From positions 372,001 to 436,000 of the forward strand of contig NZ_CP067087.1 in assembly GCF_016745095.1 (NCBI RefSeq): a DNA stretch of 64,000 nt. Reading direction: 5' to 3'. Below are positions 20,458 through 23,603 of the stretch, one piece after another. The first letter of the stretch is position 1, and the number at the start of each line of letters is the position of its first letter. Source of the stretch: Croceicoccus sp. YJ47. Its GTDB lineage: Bacteria > Pseudomonadota > Alphaproteobacteria > Sphingomonadales > Sphingomonadaceae. The translations under genes and the position numbers were made by a program. The notes beneath the pieces were generated by a model. The model was not told the origin of the DNA. It did not search any database and saw nothing but the letters and a program-made list of their open reading frames with translations.

Positions 20458-21861
20458 GTGACCGCCCCCATCGTTTCGACCGAACCCGCCACCGACGAAG
20501 AAATCGCCCGCATTGCCATCGGCGATGTCGATGCGGCGCTTACCCGTGCGCGCGATGCCTTTCCCGACTGGGCCGCGCGGGGCACCGATGCGCGGATCGC
20601 GATCCTGCGCCGCTTTGCCGATGAGGTGCGCGACGATGCGGAGGATTTCGCAAGGCTCATCGCGCGCGAGACGGGCAAGCCGTTCTGGGAAGCGAAGACC
20701 GAGGTGTCGGCCGTCGTCGCCAAGGTCGAGATTTCGGTAAAGGCGCACGAGGAACGCACCGGCACGCGCGCGCTGGACGGGGCGGCGACGGGCGCGCTGC
20801 GGCATAAACCGCATGGCGTGATGGCGGTGCTCGGCCCGTATAATTTTCCGGCGCATCTGCCCAATGGCCATATCGTGCCGGCGTTGATCGCGGGGAATGT
20901 CGTGATCTTCAAACCGTCGGAAAAAACCCCCGCGGTGGGCCAGCGCCTCGTCGAATATTATCACCGCGCGGGCGTGCCCGCCGATGTCGTGCAATTCCTG
21001 CCCGGCGGGGCGGAGGAAGGCCGCGCGCTTACCGGCGATGCCCGCATCGACGGGGTGCTGTTCACCGGGTCGTCCACCACCGGCATCGCCATCAACAAGG
21101 CGCTGGCCGACCGGCCCGGCATCATCACCGCGCTCGAAATGGGGGGCAACAATCCGCTGATCGTGTGGGACACCGACGATCTCGACGCGGACGCGACGAT
21201 CATCGTGCAATCGGCCTATACCACGGCGGGACAGCGGTGCACCGCGGCACGGCGGCTGATCGTGCGGGACGATCTGCACGATGCATTGATGGAGCGGCTG
21301 CTGCCGATGGTGGACCGCATCATCGTGGGCGCCCCGTTTGACGAGCCGCAGCCTTTCATGGGCCCGGTCATCGACAATCATGCGGCCTAAGGGTTGATCT
21401 CCGCCTATGATGCGCTGGTGGCGAAGGGCGCGCGCGTCGTGCGTCCGCTCCGCCGGGTGGCGGAGGGCAAGCCGATGCTGACCCCTGCGATCCTCGACGT
21501 GAGCGATGTGGCCGACCGGCCCGACGACGAATTGTTCGGCCCGTTGCTACAGATCATTCGCGTCGCCGATCTCGATGCCGCGATCGATGCGGCGAACGAC
21601 ACTGCCTACGGGCTTTCGGCATCGCTCGTCGGCGGAAGCCGGGCGGATTACGAACGGTTCTGGCAATTGTCGCGCGCGGGGATCGTGAACTGGAACAAGC
21701 CGACGAATGGCGCATCCTCCGCCGCGCCGTTCGGCGGCACCGGGCTTTCGGGCAATCATCGGCCCGGCGCCTATTACGCGGCGGATTACTGCTCCTATCC
21801 CGTCACCAGCACCGAGGCCGACACCCCCGAGGCCGCGATTCCCGTCGGACTGAAGGACTAA
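20458..21861 (+). pseudogene. astD: Succinylglutamate-semialdehyde dehydrogenase AstD, interrupted by in-frame TAA
   Basis: An aldehyde dehydrogenase-superfamily protein resembling AstD of the arginine succinyltransferase pathway. The start is GTG 20458, preceded by AGAGG. The substrate and NAD regions VLGPYNFPAHLPNGHIVPAL, VIFKPSEKTP and FTGSSTTGIA are present, as are the catalytic Glu (ALEMGGNNP) and Cys (TTAGQRCTAARR). Codon 311 (21388-21390) is TAA, after GPVIDNHAA. The same frame then resumes with GLISAYDALVAKGARVV and runs 157 codons to a normal end. A single base change from GAA or CAA would explain it. The first part retains the active site but lacks the C-terminal region. Confidence 0.82.
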
Positions 21862-21949: not shown

Positions 21950-22441
21950 TCAGCGGCAGCGCGAATTGCTGCGGTCGATCTCGCGGCCGAGCAGCGCACC
22001 GCCGGCGGCCCCCAGAATCGCGCCGAGCGTGCGGTCACCGCGCCCTGCGATCTCGTTACCGATCAACCCGCCGACCGCGCCGCCGATCAGCAGGCCGGTC
22101 GTGCCGTTTTCCTTGCGGCAATACACGCGGCCATCGTCACCGCGCCACACGCGGGTGTCGCGGCGCACCGGCTCGCCATAGCTGCGATAGCGGTCGTCAT
22201 AGCGGCGATCGTCATAACGGCGGTCGTCGTAACGTCCGAAACGGCCATTGTTCCACCGGTCGCGGCGGTCCTTGCGATGCTGCACGGCTTCGTCCGCGGC
22301 GCCGGGCAATGCGTACTGGCTCACGACCTCGGCACTCGCATGGGTGGGGAAGGTCGCGGCCTGCGCGGCGGGCGCGGACAGTGCGACGGCCGGGATGGCG
22401 GCGGCCAGTGCGACATTGCGGAACATTGCGATGCGGGTCAT
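21950..22441 (-). CDS. Exported glycine-zipper 2TM domain protein
   Basis: A 163-residue protein with a signal peptide (MTRIAMFRNVALAAAIPAVA, cleavage likely after AQA). A charged region follows with three copies of an RYDDR-type repeat. The C-terminal glycine zipper is TTGLLIGGAVGGLIGNEIAG then LGAILGAAGGALLGREIDRS. Glycine-zipper 2TM proteins sit in the envelope, and some are lipoproteins; this one lacks a lipobox. The start at 22441 is preferred over 22453 because GGAG lies six bases upstream. Upstream DNA contains the regulatory motifs listed separately. The function is unknown. Confidence 0.8.
   Translation of the reverse strand: MTRIAMFRNVALAAAIPAVALSAPAAQAATFPTHASAEVVSQYALPGAADEAVQHRKDRRDRWNNGRFGRYDDRRYDDRRYDDRYRSYGEPVRRDTRVWRGDDGRVYCRKENGTTGLLIGGAVGGLIGNEIAGRGDRTLGAILGAAGGALLGREIDRSNSRCR
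22191..22235. repeat. Three tandem 15-base repeats inside the glycine-zipper gene
   Basis: Three adjacent 15-base units of the form CGRTCGTCRTARCGG, with small substitutions, encode the YDDRR repeats of the exported protein. They are a likely site of length variation between strains. Confidence 0.75.
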
Positions 22442-22514
22442 GCGATTCTCCATTCTTTCCGGACTTCCGGGCAAGTGACGGGATAGCCTTGCCGGTTCCG
22501 ATTGCTCATTTGGC

Positions 22515-22546
22515 ACGTTCATAAATATCTGAACTTTTATGAACGT
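22515..22546. promoter_or_regulatory. 11-bp perfect dyad in an AT-rich intergenic region
   Basis: ACGTTCATAAA and its exact inverted copy TTTATGAACGT are separated by ten bases, so the arm centres lie about two helical turns apart. This fits a dimeric regulator binding site between the divergent glycine-zipper gene and rarD. No regulator can be named. Confidence 0.5.
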
Positions 22547-22555
22547 TAAACGAAC
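22541..22555. promoter_or_regulatory. Candidate LexA-type box (GAAC-N7-GAAC)
   Basis: The sequence GAACGTTAAACGAAC matches the alphaproteobacterial LexA consensus of two GAAC half-sites seven bases apart. It overlaps the right arm of the dyad. Chance occurrence in a 64-kb window is likely somewhere, but less so in this short intergenic region. SOS control of either neighbour would be unusual. Confidence 0.3.
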
Positions 22556-22568
22556 GGAGATGCAGTTT

Positions 22569-22583
22569 TTAAAAAGTTTTTAA
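22569..22583. promoter_or_regulatory. Candidate CtrA site (TTAA-N7-TTAA)
   Basis: TTAAAAAGTTTTTAA matches the CtrA core of two TTAA half-sites seven bases apart. The usual trailing C is absent. It lies 97 bases before the rarD start and 128 bases before the glycine-zipper start, in an AT-rich patch that stands out from the GC-rich surroundings. Confidence 0.35.
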
Positions 22584-22679
22584 TGTTTCGGCTTTGCCTA
22601 TCGCGATGCTGATGCCTAAGCGCCGCGCCATGACGCGCGTTTCACCCCGCAGGACTGCCATGTCGAAGATGACTGCACG

Positions 22680-23603
22680 ATGACTGAACCCGCCACCGCA
22701 GCGCCGGTGCGCAGCGGCCTGCCCTATGCCATCGGCGCCTATGGGATGTGGGGGATTTTCCCGCTCTACCTCGTCCTGCTCAACGCGGTCAGCCCGTGGG
22801 CGCTGGTCGGCTGGCGCATCCTGTGGACCTTGCCGCTGTGTGCGATCATGTTGAGCGTGGCGGGACAGTGGGGCGCGATCCGGGCCGCGCTGCGCGACCG
22901 CCGCGTCCTGATCGCGATGGTCGGCAGCTCCGCTTTGATCAGCGTGAACTGGCTCGTGTATATCTACGCGGTGCAGAGCGGGTCGTTCTACGCAGCGAGC
23001 CTTGGCTATTACATCAATCCGCTCGTGAACGTGCTGCTCGGCACGGTCGTGCTCAAGGAACGGTTGAGTAAGCTGCAATGGCTTGCCGTCGGGCTGGCCG
23101 CGATCGGCATCGCGATTCTCGCATGGGAAGCGGAGGCGACCTTGTGGATCAGCCTCGTGCTCGCCTTTTCCTTTTCGACCTATGGCCTCATTCGCAAGAC
23201 GGTGGCCATCGCGCCGCTGCCGGGGTTGACGGTGGAGGTGATCCTGCTTGCGGTGTAAGCTGTGGCCGCGGTCGCGCTCGCGCCCGCGGGCACGGCGCAG
23301 TTCGGCGATTCGCTGTCGATCTCGCTGCTCCTGGTGGGTGCGGGCGCGATGACGACCTTTCCCTTGCTGATGTTCGCGACCGCGGCGCGCCGGATGAGCT
23401 ATTCCGCGCTCGGCTTCGTGCAGTTCCTCGCGCCGACGATCGTGTTCCTGCTCGCCATGTTCGTGTTCGATCAGCCGCTTCTGATTGCGCAGCTGGTCTG
23501 CTTCGTCTTCATCTGGACGGCGATCGCGCTGTTCTGCACCGACATCGTGAAACGCGGCAACGCCACCCGCCGCGCCGCCCGCCAAAGAAAACTGCCCGTA
23601 TAA
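22680..23603 (+). pseudogene. rarD: RarD-type EamA permease, interrupted by in-frame TAA
   Basis: A member of the RarD branch of the drug/metabolite (EamA) transporter superfamily. The first half has GAYGMWGIFPLYLVLLNAVS, WRILWTLPLC and ASLGYYINPLVNVLLGTVVL. Codon 193 (23256-23258) is TAA after LTVEVILLAV. The frame then continues without another stop through SLLLVGAGAMTTFPLLMFA, RRMSYSALGFVQFLAPTIVF and a basic C-terminus, for 308 codons in all. One substitution from a Tyr codon would suffice. A half-transporter of about five helices is unlikely to work, so this is a pseudogene or sequence error. Chloramphenicol resistance should not be inferred. Confidence 0.8.

Follow-up and report, generated by a model that had tools for sequence, protein, structure and literature searches.

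The locus considered here raises the question of whether a perfect inverted repeat lying between two divergent genes of Croceicoccus, a genus of the order Sphingomonadales, is a genuine control site, which of the two genes it serves, and what kind of regulator it may belong to. In the window (by which we mean the whole analysed stretch of 64 kb) the 11-bp dyad ACGTTCATAAA-N10-TTTATGAACGT occurs as an exact match at 22515-22546, just where an earlier inspection of the letters (the sequence-only reading) had placed it. The tetramer GAAC starts, as had also been stated there, at 22531, 22541 and 22552, in steps of 10 and 11 bp, and the AT-rich island that was described between divergent genes is recognizable as a GC content of 0.47-0.49 in two 200-bp segments over the dyad versus ~0.58-0.72 around it, the flanking genes coding for a glycine-zipper protein (minus strand) and an EamA/RarD-like protein (plus strand). 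The accompanying claim that the dyad stands out strongly calls for two qualifications. Perfect 11-bp inverted repeats with a spacer of at most 30 give six overlapping matches (four places) in the window, as compared to a mean of 3.2 and a maximum of 9 in 40 dinucleotide shuffles, and a perfect 11-bp palindrome in 64 kb is, taken alone, unremarkable; in the 240-bp intergenic stretch such a repeat appears in 9 of 3000 shuffles. With up to three mismatches allowed, the dyad remains a single occurrence in the 3.35-Mb genome (one contig). The genome search that had been suggested was thus productive in relatives, as described below, but returned no further copy at home, so that the case for the site rests on conservation rather than on copy number.

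On the minus strand, this region has the sequence CTCC-GTTCG-TTTAAC-GTTCA-TAAAA-GTTCA-GATATTTA-TGAAC-GTG, where three direct GTTC half-sites start at 22555, 22544 and 22534 (spacing 11 and 10) and one more is inverted. The elements and genes referred to below are as follows.

22515..22546, no strand assigned: perfect dyad (exact match), kept before orthologues
22517-22544, no strand assigned: conserved dyad core GTTCA-N18-TGAAC, conservation seen before orthologues
22526..22555, minus strand: tandem box with a -10-like TA, GTTCG-N6-GTTCA-N12-TA, one mismatch to RTTCA-N6-RTTCA-N12-TA
22551..22555, minus strand: half-site 1, GTTCG, located 11 bp before half-site 2
22540..22544, minus strand: half-site 2, GTTCA, identical with the left dyad arm as read on this strand
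22530..22534, minus strand: half-site 3, GTTCA, 10 bp beyond half-site 2
22522..22527, minus strand: proposed -10 element TATTTA, its TA at +17/+18 of the site
22517..22521, minus strand: inverted arm TGAAC, which completes the dyad just downstream of the -10-like TA
22448..22451, minus strand: likely ribosome binding site GGAG, read from the sequence
21950..22441, minus strand: glycine-zipper 2TM protein gene (PF05433, E 4.9e-10) with ATG at 22441, presumed to be regulated
22680..23603, plus strand: divergent EamA/RarD-like transporter gene, presumed non-target, interrupted in the assembly by an in-frame TAA at 23256-23258

The dyad core lies ~100 bp upstream of the glycine-zipper gene, whose product is called secreted on the basis of a signal peptide judged by eye. 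Scans for sigma-70 consensus promoters and for terminators returned nothing at 22400-22700, and Rfam gave only two sub-threshold matches. Readings of the element as an EcfG or a sigma-54 promoter were dropped after comparison by eye with the respective consensi. As to the quality of the assembly, in-frame TAA triplets at 21388-21390 (aldehyde dehydrogenase) and 23256-23258 (RarD-like) interrupt genes that are both intact in two same-genus genomes, and a 3.24-kb stretch is present at both ends of the contig, its two copies agreeing at 98.4% and differing by 23 mismatches and 25 gap openings; these copies correspond to L239 and L240, near 15 kb and 3.35 Mb. The contig is probably an untrimmed circular one with residual errors, which may explain the in-frame stops as well as a broken kinase frame in L245.

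A glycine-zipper homologue was detected in 30 of the 40 genomes searched, our own included; 24 of these 30 loci had their upstream regions inspected in oriented form, and among them half-site 3 is confined to the genome of the window and its two closest relatives (L005, L006 and L007). A scan of public genomes took the best 80 of 563 relatives, of which L107 and L151 were dropped for want of usable upstream sequence, leaving 78. The core GTTCA-N18-TGAAC is exact in 31 of the 78 upstream regions and found within one mismatch in 49, and other spacings from 8 to 30 gave at most 2 exact cases and at most 12 within one mismatch; since the loci are related and include paralogues, these counts are not independent. 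Two of the 49 near-exact dyads lie ~242 bp away and look like chance, and the remaining 47 less L083, which is nearly identical to the window, constitute a profiled set of 46 sites at 50-130 bp from gene starts that were set by a simple rule, not by annotation. In this set the left arm reads GTTCAK-n-WW and the right one is its mirror image, with K at position 5 in 46 sites, M at 22 in 44, WW at 7-8 in 40 and WW at 19-20 in 33. The asymmetric TA at +17/+18 is present in 35 of the 46, and the majority carry TCTGAC ~21 bp and GTTGC ~10 bp before GTTCA. The conserved part would accordingly be described as GTTCAKnWW-N10-WWnMTGAAC, not as the exact 11-mer. Absence from relatives had been named as the outcome that would speak against an operator; the dyad is kept at an equal place with fixed N18, and the operator reading is supported by the comparison. 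Judged from these alignments, the mirrored motif is a real, conserved element and probably a control site before a gene for a small secreted envelope protein, its presumed target being the minus-strand gene.

To search for further copies we used a sequence-only profile (R1) built on 40 sites, among them those of the window and its relatives, whose own matches therefore come by construction. In our genome, with 150 of 592 first-look candidates scored, the window is the sole match at E ≤1; under stricter filters, 56 of 119 family genomes have a match at E ≤0.03, those which supplied the profile being counted among them. From 83 listed places, 40 were fetched, mainly second or weaker matches plus five of the eleven best, and 35 of them carry the dyad with at most one mismatch, the other 5 having three or more and not being dyads. 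By our own reading of the open reading frames, 29 of the 35 confirmed dyads lie before a gene for a secreted protein or lipoprotein; at L212 the dyad faces a hydroxylase-like frame and has a secreted gene on its opposite side, and five (L195, L200, L206, L214 and L221) have no clear target. RcnB (PF11776) was confirmed for all three RcnB-like targets tested, the targets of L194 and L197 matched no Pfam family, and none of nine profile matches examined in other families lay before a clear secreted-protein gene. When a draw of 289 genomes from the class was searched, the refined dyad turned up in 4 of 5 family members (our own included) and in 7 of 284 others, and a control pattern gave 5 matches, all outside the family, so that there the refined dyad is near chance. 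A looser search of our genome for GTTCA-N18-TGAAC within one mismatch returned at least 146 places versus 17 for the reversed control, an 8-fold excess; among the matches listed, 10 are exact, most of them without TA at +17. Codon usage is suspected as the source of this excess, and the count was left out of the argument for the site. The direct pattern GTTCA-N5/6-GTTCA proved uninformative in the same genome, its three matches being equalled by three control matches.

Elsewhere in our genome, similar half-sites precede an operon in which a SIMPL gene upstream is followed by a PepSY-like gene, a response regulator and a kinase. The regulator combines Response_reg (PF00072) with Trans_reg_C (PF00486); its nearest PDB sequence is BasR/PmrA (E 4.3e-49), and PmrA/BasR is also its best NCBIfam match, yet with a score of 227.1 versus a cut-off of 330 (NF007928), i.e., below equivalog level. 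The PepSY-like match reaches 20.2 bits, under the Pfam cut-off of 24, and in the kinase PF08521 alone passes the Pfam cut-off, the C-terminal part lying in another frame in the assembly. The operon promoter reads ATTCA-GATTGC-GTTCA-ATGGCTTGATAC-TA, with half-sites 11 bp apart, with TA at N12 after the second of them, as in the dyad promoters, and without a TGAAC arm. This box was first spotted by eye and was for that reason tested in relatives. A regulator match exists in 31 of 31 genomes, with 83-100% identity within the family (19 genomes, in one of which a contig end truncates it) and 66-73% in 11 of the 12 genomes from other families, the twelfth, G031, having only a 37% match. Upstream of it, RTTCA-N6-RTTCA is found in 27 of the 29 loci with full flanks, where no other half-site spacing from 0 to 15 occurs more than once. 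The full composite RTTCA-N6-RTTCA-N12-TA is present in 24 of the 29 (17 of 18 in the family and 7 of 11 in others), other TA distances reach at most 4 of 29, each of the five loci lacking the composite is one base off, and block shuffles of these upstream regions yielded it in 0 of 5800 cases. This arrangement suggests that the operon is autoregulated. The phased half-sites noticed in the sequence-only reading as GAAC thereby find a counterpart, as GTTC and with one mismatch, in a tandem box recurring upstream of a response-regulator operon. Two traits of OmpR/PhoB-type control are present, namely, head-to-tail half-sites about one helical turn apart (11 bp, with the one mismatch in the window box) and a winged-helix response regulator whose own promoter carries the box (24 of 29 loci). 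The dyad profile itself gave no match at E ≤5 in twelve loci of our genome with OmpR-type (10) or LytTR (2) hits, among them the PepSY-like operon, two of the ten OmpR-type hits being one gene repeated at the contig ends.

The composite is not restricted to this operon. It was found in 40 of 40 genomes, with 155 matches versus 11 for the reversed pattern by our own sum, although these genomes are related and the counts overstate independence. When one composite locus per genome was inspected, 22 of 30 preceded a secreted-type frame under a strict rule versus 3 of 30 in the backward direction; four have the composite directly upstream of LolA (PF03548; L291, L294, L295 and L296), a glycine-zipper lipoprotein is also recognized by Pfam, and further targets were named by eye. 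Our genome has the exact composite at a single place, the regulator operon; the window box differs from it in one base (GTTCG for GTTCA), and since the dyad profile matches there only in the window, the local regulon looks very small. Among glycine-zipper loci, 12 of 30 come within one mismatch of the composite versus 3 of 3000 shuffled 400-bp stretches; in this comparison the shuffles are shorter than some real stretches and near-identical loci (L005/L006/L007 and L029/L030) are all counted.

Tandem half-sites about one turn apart are the usual targets of OmpR-family regulators. With a probability of roughly 0.55, we propose an activated glycine-zipper promoter with the dyad as its core, in which a PmrA-like regulator would occupy the tandem half-sites and the TGAAC arm would tune the output. 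One arm of the dyad, by its sequence, appears to serve at the same time as a half-site of the tandem box. An OmpR/PmrA-type regulator would bind head-to-tail TTC(A) half-sites at 22555-22540, in the window also at 22534, thus taking the -35 position and recruiting RNA polymerase to a weak -10 element TATTTA at 22527-22522. The same composite would drive the regulator operon itself and, order-wide, further envelope genes. In the family, promoters of small secreted glycine-zipper/RcnB-like proteins would have gained an inverted TGAAC just downstream of the -10 element, by which the dyad arises, and a further regulator subunit on this arm would tune expression, most likely limiting it at high regulator activity. 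PmrA boxes are described as two 6-bp half-sites 5 bp apart, i.e., with an 11-bp period (PMC3973317, available in part), and more than 80% of N. aromaticivorans sigma-70 promoters are reported, in the accessible part of the source, to be without a conserved -7 T (PMC8407463), which makes TATTTA an acceptable -10 element. The TA at N12, the lax -7 T and OmpR-type tandem binding together lead us to read 22555-22526 as the activated promoter and 22521-22517 as the added half-site. For R. sphaeroides, the available part of PMC9275681 places predicted CenR sites of repressed units between -35 and the transcription start, two of them reversed; by analogy, the inverted arm may cap expression. From the sequence, positions, spacing, conservation and target types, all directly observed, we infer the kind of binder, its activating role, the -10 assignment and the function of the inverted arm. 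The site probably belongs, as an activated promoter, to an envelope regulon of Sphingomonadales with a PmrA-like regulator as binder, and the inverted arm over the -10 region appears, from its distribution, to be a family-level addition.

Several observations count against this model. Among them are the apparently very small regulon of our genome, the five regulator loci with an incomplete composite, and the operon itself, where the dyad profile has no match and the TGAAC arm is missing. In 16 of 24 operon boxes, moreover, an A follows the second half-site, at a position where 46 of 46 dyads have G or T; dyad promoters of a second group (MKTITKALAKG-type genes, e.g., L194, L196, L210 and L215) are devoid of the upstream half-site at 11 bp; and most profiled glycine-zipper promoters carry GTTGC at 10 bp upstream instead of a tandem half-site. 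Together with the excess of loose dyads, they make a serious rival of a different dimeric transcription factor, which would bind the GTTCAKnWW inverted repeat while a separate tandem system merely shares its left arm. Such a factor would also suit the symmetry of the dyad, extending past the five-base arms, and the contrast between a refined dyad that is near chance outside the family and a tandem composite that is order-wide. The half-site and the N12 distance to TA are, however, equal in both elements, and three more distant genomes of other families (L029, L030 and L034, the first two near-identical) carry the exact composite before glycine-zipper homologues without any dyad; we regard a separate dimeric factor as possible, if rather unlikely.

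The remaining explanations fare worse. LytTR-type regulators recognize direct repeats two helical turns apart, and an AlgR-like member binding the dyad arms could be imagined since CCGTTCAK appears to resemble a LytTR half-site and the genome has two LytTR genes; the arms of the dyad are inverted and not direct, neither of the two LytTR loci gave a profile match or holds a dyad below two mismatches, and the 11 loose matches in one of them (L234) compare with 5.7 expected, which leaves this assignment improbable. The alphaproteobacterial LexA consensus is GTTC-N7-GTTC, and exactly this is present at 22541-22555 and in L005 and L007, as expected of an SOS box. Nevertheless, the congeners L008-L012 have ATTCG, ATTCT or ATTAC as the first half-site, so that GTTC is broken and not conserved, and the targets seen are envelope proteins and not repair genes; binding by LexA is, if anything, a shade less credible than that by a LytTR protein. 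Finally, perfect 11-bp repeats are common enough in 64 kb for a chance palindrome to be considered, or else an RNA hairpin or terminator, but the spacing and position fixed across genera contradict the former, the proposed transcript would begin at the edge of the dyad, and the region holds no terminator-like site, making this the least plausible of all.

To our knowledge, the identity of the envelope two-component system of Sphingomonadales is an open question. Tandem boxes of OmpR-type regulators are, as such, well known. The question stands because a CenK/CenR homologue is reported, in the available part of PMC9275681, to be absent from the order. Resemblance to PmrA/BasR of Enterobacteriaceae lies in an OmpR-family winged-helix regulator and head-to-tail half-sites with an 11-bp period (PMC3973317, available in part), but the half-sites are CTTAAT there and RTTCA here, CTTAAT being absent from our boxes, and a PepSY-like gene in the operon as well as an inverted arm over the -10 region in dyad promoters set the present system apart. 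CenKR of R. sphaeroides and other Alphaproteobacteria uses a TGA-N8-TGA tandem, to which TGAAY-N6-TGAAY on the other strand corresponds here, and CenR likewise controls envelope and secreted proteins; on the other hand, 28 of 31 CenR sites are co-directional with transcription as TGA, where ours read TTCA, and the accessible part of the report mentions no such dyad (PMC9275681). UzcRS of Caulobacter, whose regulator acts chiefly as an activator of genes coding for secreted or membrane proteins, is similar in its targets but recognizes CATTAC-N6-TTAA (PMC8963506, available in part). Literature on an RTTCA or dyad motif or regulon was not found, within a coverage without most subscription journals; thus control of this kind is known, and the motif and regulon are without a match in the literature searched. 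For Sphingomonadales, the site offers a specific regulator, a predicted exact binding motif and candidate targets among LolA, lipoproteins, glycine-zipper and RcnB proteins, and the inverted arm over the -10 region would illustrate how one regulator acts as both gas and brake at one promoter. A bolder version, which we find doubtful at present, is that a PepSY-linked PmrA-like system with a TTCA-N7-TTCA box runs the envelope order-wide and that the family dyad packs activator and governor into a 40-bp promoter. If it were true, an order-wide system would control LolA, lipoproteins and glycine-zipper/RcnB proteins in Sphingomonadales, with the tandem pair activating while the same regulator on the inverted half-site over the -10 region caps expression.

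Some variation around the dyad deserves mention in its own right. A second, weaker TTCA-N18-TGAA lies ~40-50 bp upstream of it in L008, L009, L010, L012 and L015. A group of paralogues (L113, L114, L117, L123 and L226) carries a variant such as GTTCATCTGAGGTTGGGGATCGCTGAAC, some of them without the TGAAC arm, and half-copies of this type of variant are seen in L119, L129 and L132. In two genomes of one other genus (L069 1501-1528 and L206 311-338) the aldehyde dehydrogenase and RarD-like genes flank the dyad, and a neighbouring glycine-zipper gene is not seen; the promoter may be a remnant, or it may serve RarD.
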